From Tubiluchus corallicola (lineage: Eukaryota; Priapulida; Priapulimorpha; Priapulimorphida; Tubiluchidae): a stretch of 64,000 bases of DNA. Both the position numbers and the translations under genes were made by a program. The DNA lies in assembly GCA_030141605.1 (NCBI GenBank), contig JAQGDQ010000002.1:974501-1038500 (forward strand). The letters are read 5' to 3'. The notes under the pieces were generated by a model. That model was given only the letters and a program-made list of their open reading frames with translations. It was not told the origin of the DNA and searched no databases. Shown in pieces: positions 17,528-64,000 of the stretch (position 1 is its first letter; each line of letters starts with the position of its first letter).

Positions 17528-17564
<37 letters not shown>

Positions 17565-23056: not shown

Positions 23057-23819
23057 GACTGGTAAGTTTGATATCATTGGATCACATCAGTCTAGAAAAA
23101 GAGATCAAAGAAAACAATAAAGCTATCATAAGCTTACATCACAGGTAACAATATCAACATTGAAATCCTAACTAAAGCTTTTGAAATCAATTTAATACCA
23201 TTACCATACTAGCCACATACTGTCTCATTTGCCTGAAATATTCAGTAAACCTGAGACGCCGAGGAGTAAGATTGTTTGACTAGAGCTTGGAATGACTGTG
23301 ACCGTGAGTGATAATAGTCATTTTCAACTAGTCAAATTTATTTAACTGATTTTATTTGAAAAAATAAATTGCTTTTACGTATACCAAAGCGTAATCACTT
23401 TGGTGACTTTGCGCGCGCATCGCATGGAAGAAACCTTATTTTTTGTTTACGAAATTCGTTTGCAGAATTTGATTTCCCGTATGTACAAATCAAACAGTTG
23501 CTAGAAATCAGAAATCTAGTAAACGAATGGAATACAGGGTAAAGACAAATAAAGACATTAAAGTGGGAAAAGACAACTAAAAGATCTGCGTTATAGAAAA
23601 ATAGACTTTGCACCCTATAAAGGTGCCCGCCTCTGATAGGGGCGAGAGTCGAGGATCGCAATCGCAAAAACAGTTTCATTGCAATGATAAACCCCTAGCA
23701 AGTTAGTATTGTCTAGCTTTTTGTTGCTGTGTGTACGTCTTGAAGGCGCATTTTTTTATTTTAAAGTTGTGCCTGCCCAGTGTCTACAACTGATGTAATT
23801 GGTATATGATGATGATGAT

Positions 23820-38700: not shown

Positions 38701-40115
38701 TATTTGTTAGTAGTTAACAAGACATTACTTAAGTGTTAATTGACATGTAATTAAGTGCATTGTTTTTTAATATAATATTTTTGTGAATCTATAGCCTTGA
38801 ACTTTAGGATAAAAAAGTGTACATCTATCTTCGTCACTATGCATTTTTTACATAGTAAAAACCTAAATCTTCCAGAATCCAGAAAGAGATAACAAGTGCA
38901 GCTTAGTGCATATACAATTTTAAATATGTACCTAAACTAACTAGTGAAACTACTAGGTAAACTAGGACAGCTGTGAAAATACTAAATTAGAAAGTTACAA
39001 ACATTTTTTTATTTAAATAAGGCTTAAAGTTACTGGCATATGGAAAGTAGAAAATAGTTAAAGATTTTGTGAACCACATAGTTGATACAGCAGTATTTGC
39101 CAACTAATTTAGCAGGTTTTATAGTTCTTTGATGGGAATGGTATTTGCGAGAAGTATTAATCACAGGTAATACTGAATGGAAAGCTAGGATAAAGAATAG
39201 TAGCATGAATAATACCTTGTTGACTGGAGTGTCTGAAAACAATTCGTCCACATCTAGCCATTGAAACTTCACGTTACACGTAAACGATGGCGGGTCTTCG
39301 TCAAACCTATCAGTCCCTATTATCCAGAACTTTATCAAAGCTTTCGGTTGCTGTTTGCACACGCTTCTTATTGACAACACTGCCGTTTCGGGCAGTTTGA
39401 TCGGTTCGGACGTCCATAACATATGAATGAGGTGTCTCCTGTCCAGCTTTTCGTCCTGATCAGAAACGACGAACAGATTGTTTACATCGTCATCACTCTC
39501 GCTGTAATTTACTAATAAATAAAGTGTGATACTTGCAACTATGACGGCGAATAGGTACTTAAATTTTACTATACGATAATTGAATTTTAAACTCATTTTT
39601 GCACATATTAGTAGAATACATTAACATGTAGTTGAGCTACAGCTTACTTTTGCCTTTATAGAAGCGCGCTCTCATGCGTTTAGTAGACTTGGCTTTTCAC
39701 ACAGGTTAGCTATAACTTATATATTTTGCGGCGGAAGTAAATCCGGTAAATTTTTAAACTTCATAGTCCGCAAAATTATAGAGAAAATATCCCTTTTTTT
39801 GTTACTCTCACTAGAAATTGTTTTTAACGATTTTTTATACTAATTAAATGCTGAAGCTTGCAAGCACCCCGTTAAGATGATGAAGCTCCGCCTGCATTGG
39901 GTCGTTATCCTTTCACTGAGCCGTAACAAGTTGACTAGCACTCCTGTCCGACGTGTGTGCTATGCTTGCTGTGCAGTGGAAACGTTTTATTGCCATCTTT
40001 GCTATTTACTATAATAATTGATAAAAGTCTTTTTTAGTTTCCTGGTGAATGACCAATAAATTTTTCTTCAATTACATTGTGTAACATACAATGAACTATT
40101 GACTATAAAGATTTC

Positions 40116-40189
<74 letters not shown>

Positions 40190-43100
40190 TTCACTCTCTC
40201 ACTCTCTCTCTGTCTCTCTCTCCCTCTCTCTCTCGTGTGTGTGTGTGTCTGTCTGTCTGTCTGTCGTAGACACCGCACAGTTTTTTCGGCAATACTACCG
40301 AACACATTGATTTTTTGGCAGTACCACATATAGAATAATAGTTTTGAAGTTGTACAAAACAGTTACATCAATAAGGCATTAATGTAGGCAGCTGAGTAAA
40401 CACATATGTACACTATATGATTGTATAATTTTTTCAGTAAACACTTATGTACACTATATGATTGTATAATTTTTTCAGTCCCAACAGATTGGTCTGTTAA
40501 ATCAATCTGGCTACATGCCACAAATACAGCAGTAGACTTGTAGCTTTCTGACGCGGTTCTTCTCTAGTAGCTTGAATTTATTATTTTTTTAAATCAGTAT
40601 GACTCTGCAATATTTTTGGCTTAATCTGTCTACTAAAATTGACCCCAGCATAATTTTATTTGCATCAGATTATAAGTGTTAGCAATGAACTGGACAGCTA
40701 TAAAACTATGTATCGGTTCTTTCTATCCGTCGTTTGCCCTACTGTCACTACTTTTTCTCGACTGCGGAGTTATCTACGAAATTGATACATTGTATGACGG
40801 TCGGCCAGTAGGGTAATATTTAAGCTCGAAACCTGCTTTTGGTTCAATCGATGCAGATTTGGACTATTTGCAAGTTTTTAAAGGTTCATGTGTAACGACT
40901 CATGCTACAATCTGCCTACACCGCCAAACGAATATCAACTGACTAGCAAGGTATCAGATAACAACAATCAGTAACATGTTTTCATTTAACCTTGCACAAT
41001 TTGAGCTGTGTTTGAACATACTCTCTGGTATTTCATTCATTGTTACCTTATCGGCATTGTTATTTGAAATTTTAAAACCATTCCACATTGTAACTCTGGC
41101 ACCTTCCTGTATCGAATTCTAACCTCAACTAACCGGATGCTCTATGTATATGATTGCAGTTTTTTTCACAGAAATTTAATGTCATTTAAGTGTCAGTCAT
41201 AATACATCATTATAGTAACCTCAGAATACATCAATCTCAGCGGGAGAACTATGCCCTTCTGCCGAGGACTCTCTAGTTGGCAAATTGGTTTTGGATTGTG
41301 TAAAGCTGATTTTAGTTTAAATGTTTGATAACAAACATGATGTAATGATGTGTGTCAAGATGCTACTGCCTTTTATAATTCCAAGGGTTACATATCCCTT
41401 CTTTACAGGAAATGGGTATTGAACAAGATAAGCTTGCCGAAGAGCTAGAGAAAAATTCCTACAAGTTGATATTGCTGGAGCAAACAACACAAGTTATTCA
41501 AAAGAGTTTCCATGAGCTGCAGGTGAAACAGTTTTCTTGAACTACCGCAGCAACTTACATAGTTACCGTATCTATGGTCTGTAGCATTTTAAGAAATCTG
41601 GCCCAGACAGTTTTTGGTATTCTAGGGATAATCCATTCTGGTAGTGGAATAAAAAAAATAAATTTCAGTAAAGGATATTAAATCTTGTTATGAGATGAGT
41701 TGAACTATGTGAGTTTAGTTGATGCCAGAGGTCATTTGAAGGTCATAGATGATAAACAACAGCCACACTTCAATGGTGAATCCCGATTTGTGTAACCTGG
41801 CAAATGGGTATTATAACTGCAATGTTATATCTTATTCTAGGCTCTTGTTGTTAATAACTCAGACCGTGTTGATGTTCTTGGAGATCAGCTGAGTCAGAAA
41901 ACTGCCTTGCAGTTTCCTGAAATTGACCAGCTGCAGAACGGATTGAGAGAGATGAAAATGTCTATGAAAGGGTTAAAGCAGAAATTGGTAGAAATGGAAC
42001 GAAGTCAGAGCAAATATGGTGAGAGTCACAATTCTTTTTTAAAATAGATTTATTGGCACCACCTTATTCATATAATTACACGCTATAGTTAAGATATTAA
42101 GATTTGTGATGTAGTGGTCTGATGTGATCACTAAATTCTTTATACTTTGAAATGCAATTCTGAGGTCTATATAAGCCCACAGTACTCGTTTTTAAAGCCG
42201 TACGTAAAACACACTTGTAGAGGTATTGGTTAGAATACTTTATATTTTTTATGGACCTGTTTTGCATTTTGCACAAAAAAGATCCACTGTTTTTTTAACA
42301 GTTCTATTTCATTTTTTAATAGAAAAAACTTATTTTTCCAGATAAATTTGTAGAGGAAGTAAAGATTGAGATGAAAACCGAGTTAGATAAAAGACTTCTC
42401 TGTATGGACACTAGTTGTAGAGGGAAACTTATTTGGAAAATAAGCGATTATAATCAGAAGAAACTTGATGCTCAAACTGGAAAATCTACATCTTTGTACA
42501 GTAAACCATTCTACACAAGCTAGTATGTCATAGCTTTGTTTTTACATTATGATTTTTGTTAGAAATTTAAAGAAGAAGGTGCAACTTATAATGCCACTTA
42601 ATTGGATACCACCCCATTAACAATATTTATGTTATCTTAGGTCTACCTTTATGGAAATTTTTATGGGGCCAAACGAACTCGTATCATTCAAGATTATTAC
42701 ATTCCACAATTAATGTTTATAAATAATGTTTATGTCAACTTGTTTATATGTTGTTTTGTTCATTGTTTTGAATGGTTGTGACGTTATGAAGTATAACAAA
42801 ATGTACAATCTTTATTTTGGAACCAATGAGGTTGAGGTGTGACGACATTAATGTGGACATGGTATTGGACTTCTGATGGATTTGCGAGCAGTGAGAAGTC
42901 TCATTGTGAAATACTGTCATCAAGAGTTAAAAATTAAAAAGCTTGTAAAAGGATTGCTTGTAATTTTATTATTATATAAAGTACTTAGAATGTTATATCA
43001 ACACTGGTATTTTTGTGTGGCAGTTTTCTAGCATTTGGCAATTTTCAACAAGAATTTTGCACGAAGAAGTACTCTCTTTACCACTTAGTTAAGCTATTCA

Positions 43101-45823
43101 GTCTAATGTGAAACTAGTATACAAATACCATTGCTAAAGTGGCTCAGTGATCTAGTATCTACAGTACACAGTTTAACAGACCTATGTAAAAACAGCTAGT
43201 AAATAAAGTCAAGGAATTTTTTTCTCCCAACTTGATTTTATATAGTTTTTTCTTTGCTAAAGCAGTAGTGGCCTTCAGTCCTCCTAATCTGCCTTTAATT
43301 AAAAAAAACATTTATTGATGATTTCAAAAAAAAATTAGTAAGAAATAAATAACACATGAATAATCCTACCTGTTCAGTTAAGTAAAGTTCTTATTCTGCT
43401 GTGAATTATCCTTTATTCAAAGTTAGTTTCATTTTGAATAAATAACGCATGCAAGCAATGATTGACAAGTATGTGTTGTTATATTTGTAGCGTGCACATT
43501 ACCAATTGAAAAATCTTAGCTCCATTTTTTTAATCTTATCGTAATAAGCCAGCTAATTGTGTGTTTGTTTTATTTTTATTTTATTTTTACTTACAGCTAT
43601 GGCTACAAAATGTGTGCCAGAATCTATTTAAATGGTGATGGAACCGGAAAAGATAGTCACGTCTCATTATTTTTTGTGCTCATGCAAGGGGAATACGACT
43701 TCTTGTTGCTATGGCCTTTCAGGCAAAAGGTTTGTCTATTGTTTTGTTTTCATTTACCCGCAGTGATGTAAACACGAGAGAAAGTATGAGAGTTTAGATT
43801 TCGCTCTCTTCACAAAAAGTGTTTCACTTTTGAAAACAAGTAGGTTCTGGTAAGTTAACCTTAAAATGAAAAACTTTTTTGACATTCTGTTAATTTAGGA
43901 GAATCCGTCAGGCCAAAAACTGATTTTATTCATTATGTTGACACCCAGTTTTCCACTTTTTAATTCATATTAGCTCGCAAATGGCAACAGGCAACACCCA
44001 CACGAAATTTGCAGCATAAACACCTGAGGTGGGGCCTTTGAAGTGTTGTATCGTAGGGTGACTAGGCTGTTAATAATAACAATACATATCGATAATTATT
44101 GATTATCATATCGAAAAATTTGTTTTTATCATTATCGTGTCGATATTATTCTAGGAATGGCATTGTTTATCGCTTCTATTTATTTACAGTAATTGTGCAA
44201 AAAAGTCGATGAAGATAATTACTTAAAATTATAAATTGAATTGAATTGAATAAGATTATCAGATGCTGAATCATTTTCTTGTGCTTTCGCCTAGCAGTAG
44301 CGGCTATCTGAATTATACTAACAAAATATTGAGATCTCTTTATACTCTTCATACTGATTCGCAGATGTCAAATACACTGTACCGTAATTTTAGTGTCACT
44401 TTCCCCGTCGTGTGCAGATCGCATAGATAATATATGATTATCGCAGTAATATCTCTGTCTGTTGCAGCTTGTGACAAGTGACAAACATTTAAACTTGTGT
44501 TTCATAACTAGCAGACATTTAAGTATACAGCACTGAATGCACTGAAGCACTTAATAATTTTAATTATTAATTATACTTCTTTTGCTGCATAAATTATCTA
44601 ACTTCAGCATTATCGTTCGAAATTATTTACTGTATTGTTGGAAAAAGTATGGTAGCGTATCACCAAATTTGTATTGTTTAGCATCCCTAACGGTGACCTC
44701 TGCCAAAAAGTTGAAAAACATTGAGCATCAGTCAGTTTTCTATTGCCATTCAACCATGCCTAGGGCTTTGAGTTAAATTCGAATTTTTGCTATAAGTACA
44801 TGCATTTAGGTAATGTGGGGTAGTTGTATACCTGAGATTTTGAAAAGCTGGGGTTCTTTAAAGGCTTGAGATATGAGCTAAAACGCAATAATTAATGCAT
44901 AGCGGCATAATTAACTCAAAGCCTCTGCGTCGAGCATTGTACACACTTGTCACACTCGCGTTATAATCTACAAGTGTTGATATTAATTAACCAGTCATGC
45001 AGATATAGTCAGTTGTAAAATACGGTCACGGCATTATGCTCGCAGGTTTGGATCTGAATTCATTCTGGTTTTGTTATGAGTCATAGTCTTGAATTGTATA
45101 GTTTCATTATTGTCGTGGTTGGAGTTTAAAATGGATCTATTTGGTGTATTGCTGATAGGCTTGTATGCGTTGACTTCAAGGTAGCTTTTAGTGGCCTTAT
45201 TTTCGATACATTTATACAGCCATATGACCATTATTTCATTGATTCCACTTTTCTTGTTTTGCCTAATAATGACCAGCACTACTACAGAAAAATAAAACTG
45301 GCCTTCTATGATTTTTTTATTGTCTCAAATCATTTTCAGGTTAAATTTACTTTTCACTTGAAGTTAAGACTTGTTGTTGGACAGTTCATTTTAGATGCAT
45401 TTTACATTATGCAAATTTTGACAACACAGTTATTTTACAATATTTAAAAAACATTAGTTTTAACGTACAGGTTGTGCTTAGCATGCCAGATTTTCTTATC
45501 GTTTCAAGTTATGCAGAATGTTTAAAAATGTGCCTACAGTCTGTGCAGATTTGAGAAAATTCTGTAGTGATCCGCCCTGTACTGATTTTTTACAGGTGAC
45601 ATTTTCGCTACTTGATCAGAGTGGAGAAGGGAAGCATTTACATGAGAGTTTCATGCCTGATTCTAAATCGTCATCCTTTCAGAAGCCAACAAGCGAGATG
45701 AACGTCGGTTCAGGCTGTCCATGTTTTGTGCCACAAAAACTGCTCGAGGGAATAAATAGTTATGTGATCAATGACGCAATATTTGTACAAGTGCAAGTAG
45801 ACACTACAAATTTAGAACCATAA
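26752..45823 (+). CDS. TRAF3: TRAF family adaptor, TRAF3/TRAF5 type (RING, TRAF zinc fingers, coiled coil, MATH), complete, 11 exons
   Basis: Cytoplasmic adaptor and probable E3 ubiquitin ligase in TNF-receptor, CD40 or TLR-type NF-kB signalling (known for the family). Coding exons: 26752-26813, 27612-27747, 28584-28850, 29236-29310, 29564-29638, 30289-30408, 41409-41522, 41841-42018, 42342-42522, 43597-43729, 45596-45823. The total is 1569 nt, 522 aa, all joins in frame. RING finger at about residues 22-60: C22, C25, C37, H39, C42, C45, C57 and D60, so the last ligand is Asp, as I recall for TRAF5 and TRAF6. TRAF zinc fingers lie at about 67-205; the two central ones are single 75-nt exons. 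A coiled-coil-like region (about 246-360) precedes the MATH/TRAF-C domain (about 370-517), which starts GKLIWKISDY and contains GYKMCARIYLNGDG and SSSFQKPTSEMN. The VFKDKC motif after the RING and the MATH sequence point to TRAF3/TRAF5 rather than TRAF2, TRAF4 or TRAF6. An in-frame TGA at 26746 precedes the ATG, and a possible splice acceptor at 26719 suggests an upstream noncoding exon. Whether it is orthologous to TRAF3 or to TRAF5 is open. Confidence 0.93.
30701..31192. mobile_element. Possible hAT-like MITE in TRAF intron 6
   Basis: The left end TAGGGCTGAGACGGTTAACT and the reverse-complemented right end TAGAGCTGGATC resemble hAT termini of the TAGGGCTG type. The left part has repeated GTTTAACC-type motifs, as in known elements. 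Flanking 8-mers match poorly (4 of 8), so the boundaries are uncertain. Confidence 0.4.
31787..32184. mobile_element. 382-bp hAT-like MITE in TRAF intron 6
   Basis: The element runs 31795-32176. The left end is CAGTATCGGACTGG; the right end, reverse complemented, is CAGTGGCGGACTCGG. Flanks GTTTAACA and GTTGAGCA match at 6 of 8 positions, consistent with an old 8-bp duplication. No coding sequence is supported inside. Confidence 0.65.
34579..34604. repeat. (TA)n microsatellite
   Basis: About 13 TA repeats in TRAF intron 6. Confidence 0.9.
34605..35100. repeat. Diverged tandem repeat, period about 305 bp
   Basis: GCATCAGGTGTGGATTC recurs at about 34660 and 34965. Similar context follows both copies (CCTTGAAAA, CATCATCTTGTCT, TAACARTTAAGAT). 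It lies in TRAF intron 6 and has no coding potential. Confidence 0.7.
35781..39596 (-). CDS. Golgi alpha-1,4-glycosyltransferase (A4GALT/A4GNT-like, GT32), complete, 2 exons, nested in TRAF intron 6
   Basis: Type II Golgi membrane glycosyltransferase that transfers galactose or GlcNAc in alpha-1,4 linkage in the known family (Gb3 synthase or A4GNT); the acceptor here is unknown. Exons: 39596-39216 (127 codons) and 36347-35781 (188 codons plus stop), joined in phase 0 across a 2868-bp intron, giving 315 aa. It has a short basic N-terminus, one membrane segment at about residues 13-30 (YLFAVIVASITLYLLV), a stem, then the sugar-binding DXD region: FADSIRLALLYKHGGIYMDT with the DTD motif at 159-161. 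A conserved Gb3_synth-type C-terminus includes IGPKLITDCAIAWW. Human A4GALT (353 aa) and A4GNT (340 aa) are slightly longer. The gene lies wholly inside the 11-kb sixth intron of the TRAF gene, on the opposite strand. A pentanucleotide satellite begins about 100 bp inside its own intron. Family is sure; substrate class is not. Confidence 0.9.
36444..36787. repeat. Pentanucleotide array (GCTAT/GCGAT/ACTAT)n in the glycosyltransferase intron
   Basis: About 68 five-base units in blocks: GCTAT to about 36510, six GCGAT at 36511-36540, GCTAT again to about 36585, then some 39 ACTAT with one AGTAT interruption. It lies about 100 bp intronward of the acceptor of the glycosyltransferase last exon. 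Long ORFs through it are artefacts. Confidence 0.95.
37250..37345 (+). mobile_element. Possible tRNA-derived SINE head in TRAF intron 6
   Basis: TAGTTCAAATGGTGAAGC resembles an RNA polymerase III A box, and GGTTCAAGTCTTGG (37314-37327) a B box, spaced as in a tRNA. GGTTAGCCC follows. No clover-leaf is intact, so this is a relic SINE rather than a tRNA gene. Confidence 0.45.
38423..38560. repeat. Dispersed repeat, copy A (related to 51980-52110)
   Basis: CATAGACGTATG, CTTCCTATAAACGAA, TAGACTGTATATTTCCAC and CTAGAGCCAGGCC match, in the same order, sequence at 51980-52110. The family is unidentified. Confidence 0.55.
40118..40264. repeat. (CT)n/(GT)n/(TCTG)n compound microsatellite
   Basis: A long CT run with sparse interruptions passes into GT and then TCTG repeats, ending near 40264. 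It lies upstream of the glycosyltransferase gene, in TRAF intron 6. Confidence 0.92.
40395..40477. repeat. 41-bp tandem duplication
   Basis: AGTAAACACWTATGTACACT plus ATATGATTGTATAATTTTTTC occurs twice, at 40395 and 40436, with one mismatch. Confidence 0.85.
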
Positions 45824-48513: not shown

Positions 48514-51500
48514 CTATGCTCGCTGAATTTGTATCTGAAATTTACCTGAGAAAAATGAAAAAAAAACAGCCGTTTAAGATCAGAAACATCACAACTTCAA
48601 AGCAACTACAATTTCGAATATAGAAAATGGCTAAATAAGATGAGAAAAATTAAAATTTGATGAGCAAATATGACCACATGTTTCTATGTTATTAATATGA
48701 GTGAATGATACAAACCAGTAAGGTACAGAAACTGTACAACACAAAGCTAACTGAAAGTCTGGAACATGACTTGCAATTGGGAAATTAACCAAAAGACGAT
48801 ATATTTTGGTATACACATAGACTATAAGAACATGAGTGTACTATATTTGCATAAAAAATGTTAGAGAAGAAAATTTTAAATGCAATAACAGGCACGTTGC
48901 AAAATTACAGTGGTTGTTTTTTTATATACATCTTCGCAGCGATGTGGTAAATTTTTACAGCTTGTAGTCAATTTTTTTCCCTTCCTTGATTTTCACAGAA
49001 TGGCGATGTTCCAGGTGAAGACCCACATAAAGCAAACTATGTAGCTGCCTTAACTCTAAAGCATGCTTGTTGCAAAATGCACAAGTTACCCCCAAAGGGA
49101 AAAATTAATGACAATAACTTACATGCTGGCATTTGTGCTATTTCAGCTGTAACAACGCAAGTTATTCCCAGGTTAGACAGTGCTCCTCGTAATAAACCAC
49201 ATGTATATGCGAGAAACTAAAACACAACAAACAATAATTAGCTGAAGAAATTTGACTACATAAAATAATGACTGCAACTTTGAATGTTATGACTTTATTC
49301 ACTTAATCAGGAATTAGCTTCAATGCTGTATATACGTGCATACTGTTGGTCCGCAGACTGAAGTTATACAGTTATTCTGGAGCTCTGTGTAGACAACAAA
49401 AGCTGAAATTATTTGCAAATTATTCAATTATACCAAACCATACCCCACACCAAATCATGTTCAGACCATACCCATCATACAACGAAGAATGAACTAGAGG
49501 GATAATGACAAAAACTTTAGGTGTTATTTCAAATAAGAACGTAGAAGGCCACAAAAATATGATACATTGTGAACAGGGATGCATAAACACAGGTTTAAGG
49601 GCCATCATGAATGTCAAAATTTGGCATTTATAAACCTTTCTATAATTTTACAAATGTCAGTTTATAAGATTGTTTGTAATTGTGAAAAATCGTGGTTGGA
49701 GAAATTTTACTAAGATGAACATGCATATCTGTCTAATTTTTATATCATCGATTATCATTGCATTACAGGTTTGTACTATTTTTACTTTAACAATTAGGAA
49801 AACTCAAACGATCCTTTTTTCGAAACATCTGCCAAAATACAACGCGTGCACGCACGCACACACCCAGCATAATGACATGTTCCAAATATTTATTATGTGT
49901 GCTACTCTGCATTTTTGAAAAGCTTCGGAACATGACAAAAACAGGTTAATGCCCCAAAATTAGACCAAAGGCCATAATCATATCTTGCATGCTCTGGTAA
50001 GATGAACTTTTACGGCATTTGCTTTTAATAAAAATGCAGTATGTCCTTGTTAATCCGGCTCTCATTTATCAGCCAAGGCCAGATAGTGTAAAACTGTTTA
50101 AATGCCATTTCCTAATCCTTTTAAATCGTACAGCAGCTTCAATCAAGCAAATACTAAGAAGTTAGTTGTGCTAACCTATACCTTTGTTGCTACTGCAGCT
50201 GCTATCAGCCACTGCTGCAGCCTAGAGTTTGATAATTATCAGACAGATAATGAAACAATCTAATTTTGATAATCATTGTTAATGCAGTCTGTAAATCTGC
50301 AATGTGCAGATGGGAATTGTTAGTTGGGCTAAATCGAAAACAAAATGAAATGTGGTGAAGAATATCACTGCTCTGAACATAAATAAATAAAATGCAAAAT
50401 AAATTAGTAGTTAAAAGAAGAATGAAGTACCATTTTCCCTCTATGTAACAGGTAAATGCTTTAAAATCAGGATAAATGTGATGAATAGGACAAGGACAGT
50501 CTTAGCCTACAAATATAATAACTGTCTTTTGTGCTATTTAACATTCATTTAAGTTATTCCTGCTAAATCTCTGTTCCAAGATGTTCAGATAGATGAGGGT
50601 ATACTGTAATGACTGCAAAGAATACTAGCCAGTATTCATTACTGAATTTCAACAAGCTTACCCTAGGGCCAGATTCTATATACTGCTCACCAGCAGACAG
50701 TTGCAATAGAAGTCTAAATCTGTTGTCTTGTAAAACATACACACCCTGTAAATAAACTACAGTTAGAAAACAGGTTAGATTGACGATTATCCGATTGTAA
50801 CAAAATTTATTGTAGAAAAGTATCAAAATGTGTGCTTATATAAGTTTTCTTTACATTTACCACAGCAATTATCTAAATTTACACCACACGTTCTACACGG
50901 GAGCAAAATAATCACACTGGTGCTACGACTGAACCAAGTTCATTCGTTTTGTTTGTACAGTATCACAGTTTTGTATTGTTTGTACTTCAGTTGTCTTTTT
51001 TCTTATCACTGATATAAAATAATAAATCACCAGAACACAACTTGTAAATTTAATCAATATTCTTCCTCTAATCCATAATTTAACAATTTTGTAAAAATTC
51101 TTCTATAATTCCTACATTATCTTTCAATGAACTTTATGCTTAACACTGTGACAGAAATTTTGTTGACAAAAATTCTCCAATAATCTACAGCTGTTATATT
51201 ACCTGATGATTAGTACGCAAATTGTCTATTTGTTTTTTATAAATTGATGTCCAAAACTCTTTACAGATGAATTTTATCATATCCAGTTCATCTTTGAATC
51301 TTGGAAAGTCTTTGGTTAGCCTAAAAAAACATTGTAATACAAATGTTAAGATTGCAGATGCATGTACTACAATAAGATAACAAATGGAAATTTATGAAGC
51401 CAGTACAATATAGCAAAGCCTCAAAAATAAATTGAAAAATATTTGAATTAAGTTCATTTGACTCATTACACCACTGATATTTTTCCCAGGGAAAAAGAAT

Positions 51501-54500
51501 ACATACAGTTAATATTCAGCCAGATTAGTACCTAGACAAATAGTTACAGAGTGCCAAGACTGAGTTCAATTATGCCGTTAAACAATATTATTTTTCTCCT
51601 AAAATTTAGTTTTACCTAGTGCTTTAATTTGATCATACACTGTTGTTGTAGCAATGCTTAATAAAACTCATCATCACCTTTCTATAGATAACAATGCTGC
51701 AATTACTTGAAGTAAAGTCACCTTGTTCACTTAAACTTGCCATGTTTTTGGCTAATCAGAAGCATTAAATTTAACAAGCTGTGATAAAAACAGCTATAAC
51801 GTAAATGTGCCAGAACAGGTAAGTAATATTGTTTTTGTAGGCACATTTTCATCAAATACTTGTACTGTTTGTAAATGCACAAATGGTTACACTAAAAAAA
51901 ATCAACATCAAAATAGACTAAATATGTAGATTTATTTAGAAGTAAAACCGCTTCAGCTGACGAAAGCTATAGACAACAGTCATAGACGTGTGTACTTTTC
52001 CTTATAAGATACGAATTTAGACTATATATTTCTACAGATTTACATTGAAATTTAATTTGTCAATCTAGAATCAGCCAGCGACTCTTCCGTCACTTGATAA
52101 AAATTAATAAAGGATGGGTAGCAGCGCAAATTGTTTGTACTCACTAGGGATGTTAGGAACCAAATCTCATTTTATATTAATTTTTGAATCCAGATCAAAT
52201 CAGAATCTCAGTTTAAAAGAATCTTCGAAACAGAATCGAATCTGTTTTTCAGACAGTTCTTTAGACCGAATCTTATTCGAATCTATGCAGTTTACAACCA
52301 ATTTATGGCAGATTGATAAAACAGTAGTGTTTTTCATGAAGATTACAGATGACCTGTCTGAGCCTTGACAGTAATTCTGCAAAAACAAAGACTACAGATG
52401 ATCTAATCATTTTGCAACAGATGACTAACAATATAAAATGATCTGTTAGTCAAAGAATTCTTTGGGGTGCCTTTACCATGTCCATGAGTCCATTGTAACA
52501 TGGACGACAAAAAACCATGTTCATCCAAGCCACATAGTGCACTGTTAGCGAAACCACGTTCTGTCAAAGTAATACAAGAAATTTTAGAATTTTTGTTGTA
52601 ACTAGCAGTTAAAATTGTAATGCAGTGCAAACTTTCACATAGGATTTCATGAGTTGAACACATGCTCAAACTGAATATGGTGACATTGGCGTATTTCAAG
52701 TAAGTTAAAATTGTGAAAAAAGGCAGCAATTTCAGGAATTTGCCGAAAAATTTAAAGGTAAAGGAGCATGCACTGCTTGTGTAATAAACCACTACCGAAT
52801 TGTCTCTGCAGCCGAAGCTAAACCCCATTTTCTAAAAAGTCTCTGCTCAATCGGATTGGATCTCAGGTAACGCAGAAATTCAGTGGATCGAATCAAAACT
52901 CTGATTCGGATTTGGTTTCAAAGCTCTGGTTCTTTCGAAGCATCGTGACTCGTGACATCCCTAGTACTCATAATGTGCTCACTAACATTGTTTGTACATT
53001 GGCTCAGTTATGGATTACACACACTTTTCTAGATTATTACGTTTTACCTTGTACAAGAAAACTGTTTGCAGCAACATATGGCAATAAACACTACATCTTA
53101 AGTACATCTAAATTGTTTACATTTATAAACAAAACAATGCAAACACGTGATTATGTGTATGACGTTGATGTAGCTCCACTTTGATATTACCCTATCATAA
53201 AATTATGACAGCCATTGCATTGAACATGTTGCTTATATTACCAGGGGTGCTGGAGAGATGTACATTAATAGCGTGGAAATGTATAATAATGATGTAATGT
53301 TATGTTACATTTATATAAATCTGGTTACTTGATAATATATTACTGATATATAAATATCGAAAATTTCATAACCTAGATATTAGAGCCAACATCATAGTTA
53401 CTTACAATACAATAGAAATGCACCAAGGCTGTAACTTGACTGCTAGTGCTAGTATGTATCCTTATGAAGTCAGTGCTGTATAAGTAATTACTTTATCTTT
53501 GGAATCAGTGCATTTTTAGAGCTTTTTCTTTCTAAAAAAATTAAACACTAAAATGAGGTATCACTACATATTCCGTGAAAAGGCAGCTATTGAATCTTTA
53601 GTATGAGTATGCTTATAATTACAATAATATCGCTGGCCTACAGGCTACAAGTCGTAGTAGGCTTTTACACGATAAAGTTGTTTCACCAACTTAATTTAAT
53701 TTGCGATTACTATGAAAGAATGATACCACCACTTTTTTGTTTTGTATTTTACTTTTTTCGTAAATGTCAAATTCCTAGTTGAGGAGTCTCAGAATGACAG
53801 CTGACTATGTCATTAATTTGTTTGTGACCCTTAATACATATAACTCAACATTATTTACCTTTTGAGATATTAATTGCAAAATGATTGCACATTATTATTT
53901 TTTGTATTTTTTGGTAAATTTTTATTGTGTTTTTATTTTAATATATACTGTATACAGTATAATACTCCACAAAATTGCCTACAAGACTTCAAGAAAACAT
54001 TTTAGTCTTAACTAAGTTTCGTTAATTTGCAATGTGATGACTCTGGGATGTCTTAAATTTTTGTAATCATAACAATGTTAATGCTTTAGTTTAGTTTAAA
54101 TATTAAGAGATATGCATGCCTAAAGGTTACCTACTGCAAATGTATTTCGTGAAATTTTTGCTGTAGTGTACCATAATATACATGTAGGCTCGCCAGATTT
54201 TTTGAAGGTCACGTACTGCAAACGTAGTTCGTGAAATTTTTGTTCTTGTGTACAGTAGTTAGCACGTAGACTTCACCAATAATTATTCTTTTTTGCCCCC
54301 TCAAATTCGGTCTAGCTAGATTAAATGCAAATCATTCAAGATCATGATGAGAGCATTGTACAGTTACTGCACATAATACTCCATACTATTAATTCCAAGG
54401 ATAAGAAACTCGTTTGTTTTTTTAGTTAGAAATTAACATTATGTATAGTGCATAAATTATATAGCGTCCACTTGCGGCAAAGGCTGAAGTGAAATTATAG

Positions 54501-57500
54501 TAAAGACTGTGTTATGTTTGAAGGTTATATTCACCATGTTGGATGTTTATGTGCTGTACAATAGGTTTAGTCCCTTACAGTGTATGTACTAGTAGTGTAC
54601 TCTTGCAGGCTTGTAATCAGTTAAACTAAGCTGTATTGTAGATACGTCTGTGTTACAAATTTTGTTTTTCAATTTCCAAAATTTACAAAGTTAAAATAAG
54701 TCAGAAGTTAAGACTAAAATTGTTAATTTATTTTTTCCTGTTTGGAAACTTACGTATATTCATTAGATTGAAAATCTAAACCCATTATTCATTAATTTAT
54801 GCTTTAATATTTTCATTGTTTATAATCTATTCCACGGTGAGATATTAGTGTTGTAATTGCTTATATTCAAAAACAACAATTTAAAATATTAAGATTTTTT
54901 TCTCATTAAGCAGTAGCTACTTTAGTTTGAGTTTAGTTTTTGAGATTCTTCAAAGTTTGTTTGTTGATGATGTTACTAACACGGATGAGTATAATTGCTG
55001 TGGTTTATGTTACAAGTTGATGACTAATTACCGAATTATTATCCAATGTTCTTATTGCAATTCATATTACCATTACAGATGTGTATCTATACCAACCTAT
55101 ATTAATAATAATGATCCATTCATGTGCCCGTTGTGTTTCCTTTCTCTAAATTAGATGACTCTGATTTACGTAAATTATTATACCATACTAAATTTGAAGA
55201 TTCTAGCGATCTACCAGATAATTTAAATAGTCAATGTTTTACCTTAAATAACTACTATCAGCATGATCCCGACACTATAATACCGTCTACTACCTCACAA
55301 TATTTTTCTCCTGATGAGTTTCATTTATGCATTGATAGTAACTCATCTGATTTAACTATGATGCACATGATCGTTGTCAGTTTAACTGAAGAAAAAATTG
55401 AACTTATTCACGAATTACTTTCTCCTTTAAGAAACCCTATTAAAATATTAGGCATTTCTGAGACACGACTGAGCAACGTTTCTGTATCAAATTATGACCG
55501 TCCAGGTTATTTTGATCTCCTAAGACATGACTCCATTGTGAAAACACATATCGGTGGTGTGGGTTTATATATCCATTTTTTATTGACACATTTTGATAGA
55601 TCAGATCTTAAGGTTAATGTTAATAACTGTGAAAATTTATGGATAGAATTGGACTCAAAACAACATGTTGGAATGGTAGTTGGGCTAATTTACCGACATC
55701 CAGGTGGTACTTTGGATTCCTTAAAGCATTTCAAATTTGAACTTGAAAGCACAATCAAAATTGTAAATGCGGAACACAAAAAATTATATATTATGGGTGA
55801 TCTAAACTTGATCTTCTGAAATGAGATAATAGTGAGTCATAATTTTACAGCTCAATATATTGATATGTTATTTTCGCCGTTTTGCTACCCTTTAATTACA
55901 AGACCAACCAGAGTCAAATCAAAAACTTTAATTGATCACATCTATAGTAATTGTATAAACACTGAAATTAATTCTGGTATATGCCTTTATAATATTAGTG
56001 ATCATTTGCCAATTTTTGCAACAGTAAAAAATATTAGCATAACTAGAGATAAAAATTGCAAAATTCATAAACGTAATTTCAAAAACTTTAATAAACAAAA
56101 CTTTATAGATGACATAGAAACTAGTTTCTTAAATTTTGAATAATAACTTACTTGTAATAGTTCAACAGAATATTATAATTATTTTTTAAATACATTAATT
56201 TCTACTATAGATATTCATGCACCATTAACAATGCTTTCAAAAAAGGAATGCAAATTATTAGAAAAACCTTGGATTACCAGAGCAATACTTGTTAGTGTTA
56301 GCAAAAAACAAAAAATGTATGTCACATGATTTCGATCTAATGATGTGAATAAGCAAAATAAATATAAAACATACGCCAATATCCTGAATAAATTAAAAAA
56401 TAAAAGCAAAGAACAATACTATATTAAGAAATTTCAGTCAGCTAATAAAGATATTAAATCAATGTGGAGAATAGTCAATGAACTAGAAAACTAAAAGCCC
56501 AAAAGAATTGTCCTACTAAATTAGTTATTAATAATGAGCAAATAACCCAATAAGTTTTTTGTAGAAGTTGGATCAACATTGGCAAAAAATATTCCAAATA
56601 TTAATAAGCATCATCTTTCGTATTTAACTGGTAATCTCGCTAATGAATTTAGATTTGAACCTACTAATGAAGTAGAAGTGCGTTCATTATTAACAGGACT
56701 TAAGGGTAATAAAACCCCTGGTGCAGACAGTGTCAGTAATTTTTTTTGTTAAAATTGCTAGTTCCGTCATTTCCAAGCCATTAACTTTTATATATAATCA
56801 GTCATTTAATACTGGTATTTTTCCTGAACAGCTTAAACTCACTAAAGTAATTCCTGTTTATAAATCAAATAGTAAAACTAAGTTATCTAATTATAGACCA
56901 ATTTCACGATCAAGTGTTTTTTCTAAAATACTTGAAAAAATCTCATTTAATCAACTGTCCTCTTTTCTTCTACAAAATAAAATTTTATATGACTATCAAT
57001 TCGGTTTTCGAAAGTCGCATTCAACAGCATTAGCATTAATTGAAATAACTAATAAAATTGCAGAGGCGCTTGATAATGATCAGTATGTCTGTGGTCTGTT
57101 TATAGATTTATCATTGTATTCTTCTAGACAAATTGCATTATTATGGTATATGACATTCAGCTCAATCATGGTTCAAAAGTTATCTTTGTGATCGTCTTCA
57201 GTATGTCGAACTAAATGGATGTAAATCCAATACACTTCCAATTAAGTATGGTGTTCACCAAGGTTCTACTCTATGACCACTTTTATTTCTTCTATATATA
57301 AATGGTATGCCACTAAGTTGCTCAAATTTAATCTTCAGACTTTTTGCAGATGGTACAAATATTTTTTTAAGGGATTCAAATATAGATAACTTGGAGAGTG
57401 TTATGAATACCCAGTTAAATAAAGTAACAGAATAGCTGAATGTAAATAAGCTCTCATTGAATATTAATAAATCTAACTTCATGCTCCTAAAAAAAAGGAG

Positions 57501-59013
57501 AACACCATCAAGAAATATAACCATAGTTCTTAGTAATGTTATTGTTGAAAAAAGTCACATGTTAAATATTTGGGAATATTTCTTGATGAGCACTTAAACT
57601 GGAAGTACCAAATAAGTATAATAAAGCATAAATTGAGTAAAACCTTGGGAATCATCTACAAATTACGCAAGTTTGTTAACAGAGAAACATTGATGAAAAT
57701 CTATTACAGTTTAGTCTACCCATATCTAATATATGGCGTCATGTCTTGGGGTGGTGTATATAAAAGTAATCTGGAAGCTTTACAAATCACCCAGAACAAA
57801 ATTCTCAAACTAATATATCATGTAAGGTATGACCATCCCACAAATATAATTTACTTGTCTGTTAAAACTCTTAAAGTGAAAGAAATATGACATCTATTGT
57901 CTCCATTTCGTGCATCAGTATCATAATTTACTACTTCCACCAGCTTTTCAGTCATACTTTAGTCCAGTTTCAAATCAACATGATCATTACACAAGATATT
58001 CAGTCGGAAACTATGTACTCTCTCTTCCAAAAACAAATATAATGAAACAGTCATCAAAATATAATGCTATTAAAATATGGTCATCAATTCCGCGTGAAAT
58101 GAAAACTTTTAATCTTTATCAATTTAAAATAGCATCAAAGAATTACCTACTACAACGGTATAATTAACTCACAATTTTACTCATCCTGATCTTAAGTTAC
58201 TAGCAAAACTTATTTTGTCCTAATGTACGTTATAACTGATGAAAATGTAATGTTAATTGTCAATTGTTTCACTTATCTGGAGGAGGACTCGAAAGCTCAA
58301 TGCTCCTTCCTCCTCCTCACAGCAACTAGCATAGTTTATTTTTTTTTCAATGTAATATCAATTTGTATGTGTGTTTGAGTTGCTGTGGAATAAATTCATA
58401 ATTTATACCATTCTACCATGCTTTGTAAAACTCGCATAGTTTATTTATTTTTAATGTAATATCAATTTGTATGTGTGTTTGAGATGCTGTGGAATAAATT
58501 CATAATTCATACCATTCTACCATACTTTGTCCAACTTGAAAGCCTATCAATTCCAAAGACGACATGGCATTCTCCTGAAAAAAGAGGAATGCGAATTTAT
58601 ACATAAAAAACAGAATTTATAATCATCATTAATTGACGATACAAACCAATTAAAAACTGAGTATACCAAGACAAGTGTGACTCTAATTTCTGCACGGCAA
58701 ACCAGCTCTATCGCAGCAGGCTTTGCCCGTAATTATCTCTCTTGTTACACCTCTGTCAATCGTTTCATTACATTTTCTCTCTCGCGTTACATTAAATTTT
58801 TAAGTTTTCATTTTCTCTCTCGCGTTCATTAAATTTTTATGTTTTCTCAAAAAAGTCGTCTCTCAAATGGAAGGTTACAGCAAGTATACTACATAATTAG
58901 TGCAAAAGTTAGGTTACATTGACACTCACGTTCCCATCTTTTTTAGAGTCATTATCAAAAAAACTGTTTATCATTTCCATGTGTAAGAAGTCAAACAAAA
59001 CTTCGTCAGCCAT
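48514..59013 (-). CDS. TRAPPC6B: TRAPP complex subunit 6B (TRAPPC6B), complete, 6 exons
   Basis: Core subunit of the TRAPP complexes, which act as Rab1/Rab11-family exchange factors and tether vesicles in ER-Golgi and intra-Golgi traffic. Coding exons on the minus strand: 59013-58930, 58574-58513, 51320-51203, 50745-50662, 49216-49123, 48545-48514. They sum to 474 nt, 157 aa plus stop, against 158 in human as I recall. Conserved blocks: FKDELDMIKFICKEFW, KKQIDNLRTNHQGVYVLQDN, LSNLGITCVVTAE and a last tiny exon encoding KFQIQIQRA. The start MADEVLFDFLHMEM matches the family N-terminus. The splice donor of exon 2 (GAATG, then GTATGA) gives GQSMVEW, then LTKDFPRFKDEL. This exon end is part of a 105-bp tandem duplication. 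Intron 2 is 7.2 kb and contains a LINE and a hAT-like element. The gene is head to head with PNN. Confidence 0.96.
51980..52110. repeat. Dispersed repeat, copy B (related to 38423-38560)
   Basis: CATAGACGTGTG, TTCCTTATAAGATACGAA, TAGACTATATATTTCTAC and CTAGAATCAGCCAGC follow the order of the copy at 38.4 kb. It lies just left of the hAT-like element. Confidence 0.55.
52137..52971. mobile_element. 819-bp hAT-like nonautonomous element in TRAPPC6B intron 2
   Basis: The element spans 52145-52963, with ends TAGGGATGTTA on the left and the reverse complement TAGGGATGTCA on the right. Flanks GTACTCAC (52137-52144) and GTACTCAT (52964-52971) are an 8-bp target duplication with one mismatch, as made by hAT transposases. 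Subterminal parts are rich in AATC/GATT-type repeats. No transposase is visible. Confidence 0.8.
54125..54243. repeat. Short direct repeat pair
   Basis: GGTTACCTACTGCAAATGTA at about 54125 and GGTCACGTACTGCAAACGTA at about 54208 are each followed by TTCGTGAAATTTTTG, an 83-bp spacing. The element is unidentified. Confidence 0.6.
54927..55154 (+). CDS. LINE-encoded PHD-type zinc finger ORF (75 aa)
   Basis: A short intact ORF at the 5' end of the LINE. Cysteine and histidine spacing follows a PHD finger: CCGLC, then CSYCNSYYHYRC, then CPLC, about residues 24-70. In several animal LINE families a PHD-like finger precedes the endonuclease, where it is thought to help chromatin or nucleic acid binding. 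The endonuclease frame begins about 30 bases upstream of its stop, in another frame, suggesting a frameshift in what was once a continuous protein. It is probably a relic rather than a host gene. Confidence 0.65.
   Translation: MSLVFEILQSLFVDDVTNTDEYNCCGLCYKLMTNYRIIIQCSYCNSYYHYRCVSIPTYINNNDPFMCPLCFLSLN
55124..56143 (+). pseudogene. LINE endonuclease domain, broken
   Basis: An exonuclease-endonuclease-phosphatase fold as in APE-type LINEs, which nicks target DNA to prime reverse transcription. Visible motifs: ILGISETRLSNV, HIGGVGLYI, ENLWIELDSKQHVG, GLIYRHPGGT, LYIMGDLN, then after a break LITRPTRVKSKTLIDHIYSN and ISDHLPIF. A TGA at 55817-55819 interrupts the frame directly after the GDLN motif. 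The second part opens at 55832. Confidence 0.8.
56560..58167 (+). pseudogene. LINE reverse transcriptase domain and C-terminal tail, broken
   Basis: Reverse transcriptase fingers and palm can be followed across frames. KGNKTPGADSV leads in, then SNYRPISRSSVFSKILEK, QFGFRKSHSTALALIE and CGLFIDLS; the usual KAFDTV is lost. Then GVHQGSTL, PLLFLLYING, a mutated FADG catalytic box, LNVNKLSLNINKSNFML, GIFLDEHLNWK, IYYSLVYPYLIYG. Stops and frame changes near 57191, 57274, 57435, 57560 and 57887 make it non-functional. It is antisense to TRAPPC6B. Confidence 0.8.
58329..58533. repeat. 105-bp tandem duplication joining the LINE 3' tail to the TRAPPC6B exon 2 end
   Basis: Copy 1 starts at 58329 and copy 2 at 58434. 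Each has a T-rich stretch, AATGTAATATCAATTTG, a GTGTGTTTGAG segment, an AATAAATTCATAATT segment, then about 29 bp that in copy 2 are the last codons and splice donor of TRAPPC6B exon 2. In copy 1 that 29-bp part differs at about 4 positions but keeps a GAATG/GTATAA donor-like site. It could be a local duplication or a second 5'-truncated LINE insertion with a long target duplication. Confidence 0.85.
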
Positions 59014-59243
59014 GCTGCCTAGTGCTTAACGCAAACTACGGCACGTGCAGTGAATGTCGGTGACGTACCCATTTTTTTTTAGTTTCACGCTTGTTTGTGT
59101 ATTGTTTATTGTAAAATAAAAATTCATAAGAGCACAGTAATTAAAAACTGTTCTAACAAAATTAACTTGCGTTTGAATTTAAATTACAACTTATAATAAT
59201 AATTTTTGCAAACAGGTAGCGCCAGATAATACGAGAAAAGAAA
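59014..59243. promoter_or_regulatory. Probable bidirectional promoter between TRAPPC6B and PNN
   Basis: Only 230 bp separate the two divergent start codons. The TRAPPC6B side contains a CACGTG E-box (about 59042-59047) and a TGACGT CRE/ATF-like core (about 59061-59066). The PNN side has a poly-pyrimidine-poor AG (about 59214) that may end a 5' UTR intron. These are motif matches read by eye. Shared promoter function is inferred from the spacing. Confidence 0.6.
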
Positions 59244-62200
59244 ATGATGGCTGTTGCTGCCGATGTTTTATCTCTGCAATTAGAATTGGATAAAGCCAAA
59301 GAAAGTTTGGTGAATGTAGATGAAAATATCAAAAAATTGACTGGGAGAGATCCAAGTGATCAACGGTAAGTGTTGTAATTGATGATGCGTTTATGGAAGA
59401 AAGATTTAAGGCGATATAAATTCGTTATCATACACCACTCTTAAAATATTAAAGCGTAGCGGTTAATCCAGCAAGCTTATTGGAACCCCATATTTCGATA
59501 ATAAATATCTATCCTGTTCTTGTTCTTGAAATTGTTCACTGAAGAAACTTTAGTAGTATCATAAGTAGCATGCTTACCTTTCAAGTAGTAAGATGTTTAA
59601 CAAAGTGGGATGTTTAGGATTTAGTTTTGAATAGATAGATACATACATTTTTATTAAATTAAAATGCAATTGACAAGTAAGTGAATATAAAATGTACACA
59701 GTGACAAGCAATGTGGCAGCATATCAGCCAGTCATTTTATGATGATTGATAGATGAAATTGATAAATAGACTGTTAGTGTTAATTGGCAATGGCGTCATA
59801 CTTATTTAGTACAACTTATTATAATTAAATTAAATATCACTACTAAAAATACATTTATTACAATGCACATCTCACAATAGATTGGGAAAATTATAAACAC
59901 GCATATTAAAAAGTTTTAAACTGTGTCCTCTGGTTTTTGAATCAACAGCTAAATTAAAGAAATTTTCAGGCAAACTGTTTTCTTAATTCCGGTGTGGTCA
60001 AATTGCAATACTTCATTCTGTCTAAATAAGCGAGATTTTTACAATGAAATATTCTTGTAGCATACCTTTGTGTCTCTCTGATAATGGGAATTCTAAATGT
60101 GCACACAGTACTCTAGATGTGTCTAACCAAACCAATTTATAATTTCAATATAATTTCTTTATTTCTAGAAACAACTTGCCTCTTTATCGTCCCTGCTGAG
60201 AAAATTTCAAGTCTGATGCTTTTATCATACCTAGAGCATTTTTGCTATTTGTGCTATGAAGAGTTGTTCCCTTCATAACATAATCTGTTTTAAAATTCCC
60301 AAAACCACAGTGCATTACCTCACATTTATCAACTTTAAATAACATCTGCCAAACGTCTTTATCAATATTATCACTGAAAATAGTGAAAAACACCGGTCCG
60401 AGTACCAATGCTTGTTGAGCACCATTTGTCACCAACATTTAAGACGATTCTACATCATCAAGCATGATATATTGTTTTCTTCCCAACAACCACTCTTCAG
60501 TCCAACTAGTACAGGCTGATATTTTTAACTAATCTTAGATGAAGCACTTTATCAAATGCCTTGGCAAAATTATCTACAAGATTTCTTTTATCAAGCATAA
60601 AAGTAACATCATCAAAAAATCTTATCTGATCGGTCAAACACGGCCTTTAGTGAATCCATGTTGGGAGTCGAATAATAAATTATTTTTTTCTAAATGGTCA
60701 GTGATGCAAATAGATTCCATTGTAAAAAAGTAGTCTTATAATTACTAGGATCACGTTGCATACCTTTTGTAAAAATAGGTTTTACATCAACTGTGAGTAC
60801 TTGATGAGTCAACAAATTTTGATGGACAGTGCTTACACAAATAGTCTGGAAGTTTAATTAATAATTTATAACCAAAATTATGAAGACCACACATTTTATT
60901 GAATTTACATTTACAAATGTAATTAATGAGCAAAGTCTTCTGATATTTGTATATCAATATCATATACATATATCAGACATAAACCTTTTGCTTTATTCGT
61001 TCTGTCTTATTCTAGTTAAAATCCAGTGCTTTGGTTTAAAATGTGTATTGTTTTATATGTAAAGAAACTGAGCATGATGTTGTTGTTTAAATTATAGATT
61101 GGGTTTAGCTGGGCGTAGGGTACCCGCTGCAGGGACATTTGCTCGGTTGGCTGCTCGACAAAATCCTGGTGCAAGGTAGTAAACTTAAAAGTTTATAGTT
61201 TGTGTATTTTAATGGTCTGTAGTTCTGTTTTTGAAAAATATGTTACTGTAAAAGTGAGCTTATTAAAAATATGAACGTAATACAGTAATTGACATACTTA
61301 AATTTGTATATATACACAAGTCCAAATCTGTCTTGTGTGGTTGCCATAAACTGGATATATATTTGTAAGCTGGATACATTTAGGTGCTGAAGTTAGTCGC
61401 TCATGTACTTATATGAATTGTGTTGTAGTGGATTGTTACTTATTGATTAGTCCAACTTACAAGTAGGGTTGCCGTTTTGTACAATTCTGATTATCACATT
61501 GGAAGCTAGAAATTATCTTATTTCCAAATTGCTCAAACCCCAAAATTGTTACATATTGCATATTCTATAATTATGCACAAGTATAAAATCAAATTTATGA
61601 TAACTCTGTGAAATGCACATGAGTTGTGCATGTGCAGAATCAAGCCTTATCTTTGTTGTCATGAGCATTCTTTTTCGAATTTATTGCCCTTTTCAGAGGA
61701 CTGCGACCCGCACACTTCTAACTACAAGGAAATCAGAGCTTATTTACTTTCCTCTGGTTAGCAAGTAACGTCCTGAATGTTTGCAGTGCATTCTTTTTCC
61801 ACACTTTCTTTTTTTTTGTTTTTTATTACTAAATTATTGAATAAATATCAATATATCGAGCCTCAAACTATCATAAAAATGCCAACACTGCTTGAAATTG
61901 ACTGTGTGACCTTATAAATTTTGTTTTTTTAGACAGGATGTGAGCTCTGCTGGGGCCTCTCTTGTCAGACGCCGTCCAGGAATAATCTTCAGTAGGTGAG
62001 TGGAAGCTGTTCTTGCACTGGGAATGTTAATCAGTCTGGATTAAGATATATTATATTTGAATGCTCATCTTGTTATACAAATACACACTTGTTTGAGTAT
62101 ATTGATCAATCTTATTTTGACTGTGATAGTTTGTCCTGTGTTATCACATTTTCGCTTTTTTTATTTCAGTCAACAGTTTAAGTTTTTTGTTTTATTTTAT

Positions 62201-64000
62201 CTACTTCATTAGATTAGGGCCTCGAACTGGAGCAGGTCGTGAAGGACCGGACAGCGGTGATGAAGAGGATTACCCTCATAAGGTAATTTTCACTTAACTT
62301 TGTGCAACACTTTCATATCAGTGAATCATTGGTAGCAAAATGTTGTATTTCTATGTTCAAATTCAATATTCATATCTTAATAACTGATCAGATGTTTTTT
62401 GTTATGTGTTGAATCCATTCTCTACTCCAAGTTTTTGCTTGAACATTGAAAAATGCTTGTGAAAGAAGTTACTATTCAATGTATTTCAGTATATGCACTT
62501 TATTCTCAGTAAAACACCTTTATTGATTTGTCACAAATGCATAAATTTTCTGGAATGTTGGCAACTTATTTGCAGATAACAATTTATTTATTGCCATTAA
62601 TAAAAAACCTGATCATTAAACTGAGGCTGATGCCAATGTATTTTTCACATTTAACTTTAACAGCCCGCTGTTCAGTCCTCTGTCATTGCACCACCACCCG
62701 ATGTCCACAGCAAACAGGACCTGATTCAGTCTCAAAATACAACAGATTCACGTGGAAAAGACAGGTAGGCTTCTAGGGCACTGTGGGGAGATGTTTCATG
62801 CTTTCACTTGGGGAGCTATATGATGACGCCTGAGGGTTGTCTTGACAACGATAATCATAAATCTTCAAAAGCGATGGTCTGGCTGCATCTGACCAGAACA
62901 CGAAAACCACTTTTAAATAAAGGCGAAGCACTTAGCTTGGTATCCCCTTTAATGTAAAAGTCACGGAATGCATATCATGCATAGTTTAAGGAATTAATTT
63001 AGTTCATTTAATACAACACAAATATTGTAGACCATGTATTGTGCAAAAAAAAAACTGCAGGGTTATGAGAGGAAGTGCTGTAAATGTTCATTTGCTTTAT
63101 GGTACACTGGTAATGAACAGAAGGAAAATTCCAGATCAGCAGTAGCCTTGTGAGTGTAGTTAACAGAACTGTAATGTTATTGTTACACATATATGCAGAT
63201 TTTACTTACTTACTTAGTCAAAAAAAAGGAAACAGCAAGTAGAACTAATAGTATCATTCAGGTAACAAATGTTTCGTTTGACTATTTCTATTTTGAAGCA
63301 TTTGTATGATGTACGTACTTTGTGTATTTAGAACATAAACTGTATTGATCATTATTAAAATAGTTTGGTACAAGGAACAATTTTGTAGGTGGGTCATAAA
63401 CTCTTTTATTGTAAACGAATACTTTATTGTGAAATGTCACAGAACTATTGCAACATTTTGCAAAATATTGCGATATTTCTTAAGAAAATGCGATCTTTTG
63501 CAAAAGTTATTTTGCAAAAGTAATAGTTACAATCGTATAGCAACTTGTGTGCAGGAAATGAGTGTTATTACAAACTAGAAAGAAAAAGTTGAGCTATAGT
63601 CCGCCAAATATGTAAGCTGTGGCATGATTTGGATAAGTGCTAGTAAACCAAAAACTGGATGTATGCGACACTAACAAGCATGGTACCATTACACCATTTG
63701 CTATGTGAAACATTATCAAAAAAGAAATTTTGGAAAGAATGGATGAGAACATTTCTGAAAATAAATCATATGAATTTTTCAAGAATGTTAAAAAATCAAA
63801 GGTAAAAGAAATGTAAGCTCTTTATGTCAACGAGGCAAAAACTTCCAAAGAAATTGCTGACTTGCTTGTAGGTATAATAAGTTCTACGTTGTAGGTGATA
63901 ATTCTGATGAAATAAAGAATTTAAAACAATTGCTAGATCAGCATTACGGTAATAATAGTTCATTTCCTTTAATTACAGTGTATGACATAATAAACACAAA
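59244..64000 (+). CDS. PNN: Pinin (PNN), 5' part only: exons 1-5, continues past the right edge
   Basis: Nuclear-speckle splicing factor and exon-junction-associated SR-like protein, also found at desmosomes in vertebrates. Coding exons seen: 59244-59365, 61098-61175, 61933-61995, 62213-62282, 62664-62764, joined in frame with GT-AG introns. Exon 1 contains the diagnostic pinin N-terminus: ELDKAKESLVNVDENIKK followed by LTGRDPSDQR. There are two in-frame start codons, 59244 and 59247; the second gives MAVAA, close to the human MAVAV. Exons 2-3 encode an Arg/Gly/Ala-rich linker, exon 4 an acidic GPDSGDEEDYPHK stretch, and exon 5 PAVQSSVIAPPPDVHSKQDL, which matches human PALQSSVVA...RDLIQ. The conserved pinin/SDK/memA domain (RNRRIFG in human) should follow, but I do not find it before the edge. 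A possible upstream acceptor just before the start suggests a 5' UTR intron. Confidence 0.92.
59750..60790 (-). pseudogene. Decayed LINE reverse transcriptase fragment in PNN intron 1
   Basis: Read on the minus strand, degenerate RT motifs run from about 60720 down: CITDHLEKNNLLFDSQHGF, DNFAKAFDKVLH, WLLGRKQYIML, GAQQALVLGPVFFTIFSDNI, FKVDKCEVMHCGFGN, ALGMIKASDLK, then a tail resembling the usual FFSQRIVDLWNSLP end. It has many stops and frame changes. The KVDKCEVMH and LG.I..DLK pattern is typical of CR1-like LINEs, distinct from the 55-58 kb element. It is opposite in strand to PNN. Confidence 0.75.
63715..64000 (+). pseudogene. Degenerate retroelement linker fragment near the right edge
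   Basis: A plus-strand frame, broken by stops and one shift, reads ENISENKSYEFFKNVKKSKV, then NEAKTSKEIADLLVGIIS, then NSDEIKNLKQLLDQHYGNNS. The style resembles the region between the endonuclease and reverse transcriptase of LINEs. Identification is tentative because no catalytic motif lies within the window. Confidence 0.4.

Follow-up and report, generated by a model that had tools for sequence, protein, structure and literature searches.

We analysed a 64,000-nucleotide stretch of the genome of the priapulid Tubiluchus corallicola (GenBank assembly GCA_030141605.1, contig JAQGDQ010000002.1, positions 974,501 to 1,038,500 of the forward strand; hereafter the window, whose numbering is used throughout). 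The subject is a pair of divergent neighbouring genes, TRAPPC6 on the minus strand and PNN on the plus strand, and the short spacer between them. The initial annotation had read the two N-termini as head to head, with about 230 bp between the start codons. Both N-termini extend into whole gene models, and the distance between the TRAPPC6 start codon (59011-59013) and the first ATG of PNN (59244) is exactly 230 bp.

The TRAPPC6 model runs on the minus strand from 59013 down to 48514, with six exons, GT-AG introns and a product of 157 amino acids:

58930..59013, minus strand: coding exon 1 (start codon 59011-59013)
58513..58574, minus strand: exon 2
51203..51320, minus strand: exon 3
50662..50745, minus strand: exon 4
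49123..49216, minus strand: exon 5
48514..48545, minus strand: exon 6, including the stop codon

The closest PDB chains to the predicted protein were named TRAPPC6B (E 6e-64), followed by TRAPPC6A (1e-53), with further matches to GEO08327p1 (5.6e-53) and to subunit 33 (1.7e-16). We take these chains to be human (TRAPPC6B and TRAPPC6A), fly (GEO08327p1) and yeast (subunit 33). Identity was 94/156 aligned residues to 6B and 84/156 to 6A, and the protein carries a Pfam TRAPP domain (E 8e-41). A search of the same genome for the TRAPP family gave at least four matches at three genes, namely TRAPPC3, TRAPPC5 and TRAPPC6 (match counts in this search and in the pinin search below are lower bounds). 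The other two match TRAPPC5 (best E 1.5e-79) and TRAPPC3 (best E 4.6e-29 from one exon), and the gene studied here is nearer to TRAPPC6 than to either. As far as this search reached, a second TRAPPC6 copy was ruled out, one of the three genes being TRAPPC6. The name TRAPPC6B belongs to one of the vertebrate duplicates. Therefore, whilst the TRAPPC6 identity in the initial annotation agrees with the best PDB matches, its label TRAPPC6B is better replaced by the safer TRAPPC6.

Intron 2 of TRAPPC6 contains broken reverse-transcriptase-type frames of a long interspersed nuclear element (LINE) at 55115-58167 on the plus strand, which we take to be CR1-like. Moreover, a 93-nt direct repeat lies at 58340-58432 and 58444-58536 (92% identical, spacing 104). 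The second copy contains the last 24 bases of exon 2 together with its donor, so that the first repeats this exon end and might offer a decoy donor next to the LINE.

The PNN model has ten exons on the plus strand. It starts at 59244 and ends at 70879, counted in window positions, which is 6.9 kb past the window:

59244..59365, plus strand: coding exon 1 (ATGATG start; Pfam PF04697 match)
61098..61175, plus strand: exon 2
61933..61995, plus strand: exon 3 (model end 61992, shifted by eye to 61995, where a GT donor follows)
62213..62282, plus strand: exon 4
62664..62764, plus strand: exon 5
outside the window, up to 70879, plus strand: exons 6-10 (PF04696 match at contig position 1039509)

Pfam places Pinin_SDK_N (E 1e-15) as well as Pinin_SDK_memA (E 9e-30) within the first 297 residues, and the C-terminus of the translated model is rich in arginine and serine (RS-rich); on all three features the protein is a pinin. 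A PDB search at E 0.001 returned nothing for it. Searching the same genome for the pinin family gave at least one match, 1 kb past the window, and PNN exon 1 likewise gave at least one match; as far as searched, this genome holds a single PNN.

Composition and motifs of the spacer

The region between the two start codons contains the following features:

59014..59243, no strand: 230-bp spacer, a candidate bidirectional promoter
59042..59047, no strand: E-box CACGTG, 29-34 bp before the start codon of TRAPPC6
59061..59066, plus strand: TGACGT, similar to a cAMP response element (CRE-like)

The spacer holds nine CpG dinucleotides, and its CpG observed/expected ratio is 1.52 versus 0.586 for the window. 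Few 230-bp segments resemble it, with 5.3% matching its CpG count and 1.6% reaching its ratio. Neither TATA[AT]A nor its complement, the sole TATA patterns checked, occurs on either strand. The spacer is thus CpG-rich for this genome and TATA-less, as bidirectional promoters are. The segment 58925-59370 has a single match in the genome, namely itself, which excludes a repeat-derived promoter.

CpG clusters and motif pairs were counted over 93.9 kb, comprising the window and three flanks. Twelve CpG-rich clusters passed both thresholds, one of which (59016-59255) is the spacer. Another (39356-39770) spans the start codon of an A4GALT-like gene at 39596, and a third (23231-23605) starts 154 bp ahead of a PPP2R3C-like start codon at 23077. 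All three placeable gene starts in the 93.9 kb are therefore accompanied by such a cluster.

The E-box and CRE-like motif that the initial annotation had reported between the genes are both present, and both sit in the TRAPPC6-proximal part of the spacer, between 29 and 53 bp before the start codon of that gene. Counting either strand, CACGTG occurs six times in the window and TGACGT 11 times. Pairs of the two motifs no more than 30 bp apart occur twice in the 93.9 kb, once in the spacer and once in TRAPPC6 intron 2. Across 60 resamples from a first-order Markov model, the number of pairs averaged 0.15 and peaked at 2, the same as observed; the two motifs were selected only after inspection of the sequence. 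The combination is therefore uncommon yet not specific to the promoter, given that one of the two pairs is intronic.

The pair in vertebrates and its neighbourhood

In human HepG2 chromatin the gene order is GEMIN2, TRAPPC6B, PNN, with TRAPPC6B running leftward and PNN rightward, according to one study (PMC8373074). This bears out the suggestion in the initial annotation that the human genes are divergent neighbours. For turkey chromosome 5 (PMC8470100) and for cattle chromosome 21 (PMC8299338), gene lists name SEC23A, GEMIN2, TRAPPC6B and PNN as adjoining, and give no strands or single-gene positions. Both genes are also named within an association region in dog and another in human, with no information on their order (PMC3737263, PMC6094450). 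A literature search by titles and abstract openings pointed to no paper on the TRAPPC6-PNN pair outside vertebrates, though published lists may include it. No paper found in the search joined TRAPPC6B, PNN and bidirectional, and none held both gene names side by side in the phrases tried. By term search, neither gene appears in the main texts of PMC3815023, PMC2871058, PMC2670823, PMC12672016 and PMC8851819, and the main texts of PMC4773876 and PMC5429095 contain no pinin or TRAPP by those names.

The adjacency of TRAPPC6 and PNN is probably old. Of the other genes near the vertebrate pair, GEMIN2 is absent from the 3.1-Mb contig that carries the priapulid pair and lies on another (C795), which may belong to the same chromosome. 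Likewise, EAPP (C418), FAM177 (C1691) and PRORP (C679), the last of which we equate with KIAA0391, are on other contigs that are possibly of the same chromosome. These three carry little weight, because they are distant from TRAPPC6B and PNN in the turkey list (PMC8470100).

The window does contain, at about 15730-23077 on the minus strand, a PP2A B'' gene that matches B'' beta best in the PDB (E 4e-21). We take it to be PPP2R3C (gamma). A distance of 25.4 kb separates its start codon from the stop codon of TRAPPC6, and it is the one gene out of five sought or recognised from the turkey list that lies on this 3.1-Mb contig (the four Pfam searches were of our own choosing). The turkey list that names TRAPPC6B and PNN also includes PPP2R3C (PMC8470100), and the nearby PPP2R3C-like gene could be a second remnant of old linkage. 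Its position 25 kb from TRAPPC6 argues against the divergent adjacency having arisen independently here and in vertebrates. The absence of GEMIN2 beside the pair would fit such a convergence; however, only about two adjacent pairs per genome would be expected to match human by chance (a rough figure that takes about 25,000 genes and full shuffling), and we regard convergence as highly improbable.

A shared promoter or two

We consider it reasonably probable that an old divergent TRAPPC6-PNN pair has been retained and that its spacer acts as one short bidirectional promoter. Both 5′ leaders must fit within 230 bp unless one is spliced, because that is the distance between the start codons. With so little room to house a leader and a core promoter for each gene, the simplest arrangement would be a CpG-rich, TATA-less promoter in a single nucleosome-free stretch holding two back-to-back initiation sites. 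Activation would probably come from basic helix-loop-helix factors at the E-box and basic leucine zipper factors at the CRE-like motif, near the TRAPPC6 end. TRAPPC6 (vesicle trafficking) and PNN (RNA splicing) are housekeeping genes, and the likely benefit would therefore lie in both being kept switched on, not in finely matched regulation.

Several observations weigh against a shared promoter. Nine of the 12 CpG-rich clusters are without a placed gene start, and one of these lies in TRAPPC6 intron 1. The second CACGTG/TGACGT pair, at 53144-53165 in intron 2 with starts 16 bp apart, likewise sits away from the spacer. The main cautions are an acceptor-like cag whose end lies 28 bp upstream of the PNN ATG and, from outside this genome, the separate open regions at the human genes. 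In HepG2 cells, three separate poorly compacted, DNase-hypersensitive regions cover the starts of GEMIN2, TRAPPC6B and PNN (PMC8373074).

The acceptor-like site means that the PNN leader may be spliced, with its start site elsewhere. The leader would then be joined in cis or in trans at that site and the spacer would be mainly a TRAPPC6 promoter, which would also suit the position of both motifs at the TRAPPC6 end. However, GT donors in the spacer appeared weak by eye, and a scan of the window and its three flanks gave no RNA family at or above the gathering score, a result that does not cover spliced-leader genes in the rest of the genome. We judge a PNN start elsewhere improbable; it is compatible both with an old adjacency kept by inertia and with convergence.

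The human open regions bear on whether the two promoters are one at all. Since the TRAPPC6B and PNN start sites lie in separate regions, the adjacency has been kept in human but the promoter seems not to be shared, and the proposal in the initial annotation that it has stayed bidirectional finds no support on the human side (PMC8373074). This would be expected if the old adjacency had simply never been broken by rearrangement and two independent core promoters happened to lie close together in the priapulid. Moreover, TRAPPC6B, GEMIN2 and PNN show species-specific expression resembling that of SEC23A in human and mouse erythroid cells (PMC4270484), a pattern more suggestive of control over the region than over this pair. 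Such inertia accords less well with the absence of GEMIN2 from the 3.1-Mb contig, whereby the GEMIN2-TRAPPC6B adjacency differs whilst the TRAPPC6-PNN adjacency is shared; the placement of EAPP, FAM177 and PRORP points the same way with little weight. A 230-bp spacer would, in addition, be hard to break without damage to one of the promoters. Taken together, we find inertia alone rather unlikely.

A further and tentative possibility, which we consider rather unlikely, is that an ancestral shared promoter was split in two in vertebrates, with a boundary between topologically associating domains coming to lie at the TRAPPC6B start and the adjacency surviving. Such a boundary overlaps the TRAPPC6B start in HepG2 cells (PMC8373074). 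If true, the pair would be a test case for a bidirectional promoter coming apart without the genes parting.

The pair probably adds one more case to the well-known class of bidirectional promoters and old head-to-head gene pairs. Like divergently paired genes with bidirectional promoters under 1 kb, it consists of head-to-head coding genes, 230 bp apart, with a CpG-rich spacer and no TATA pattern; the class is defined by a distance between transcription starts of less than 1 kb, whereas the 230 bp here separate start codons. It differs from that class in that promoter activity is here predicted from sequence and in that the human counterpart seems to have two promoters. The pair also resembles ancient metazoan microsyntenic pairs, reportedly described by Irimia et al. 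2012, in that unrelated genes adjoin in the same orientation here and in human, a comparison that draws on this genome and on vertebrate papers. Compared with GEMIN2-TRAPPC6B-PNN on human chromosome 14, TRAPPC6 and PNN have the same order and orientation. However, GEMIN2 is on another contig in the priapulid, and the 230 bp between start codons contrast with a human spacing of about 4.7 kb. Long-lasting head-to-head pairs lend themselves to asking whether a shared promoter keeps genes together, and this one, given the separate-looking human promoters, could help to separate regulatory constraint from inertia.

Other features of the window

Parts of a TRAF-type gene lie on the plus strand within 28584-45823, with a zf-TRAF domain in the frame at 28584-28877 and the end of a MATH domain in the frame at 45482-45823; we infer that the two frames belong to one gene. 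Between these parts, on the minus strand, are frames of a Gb3 synthase-like glycosyltransferase (35781-36374 and probably 39030-39620). Lastly, the sequence at about 5984-6620 is repetitive, which keeps long repetitive reading frames open across it on either strand.

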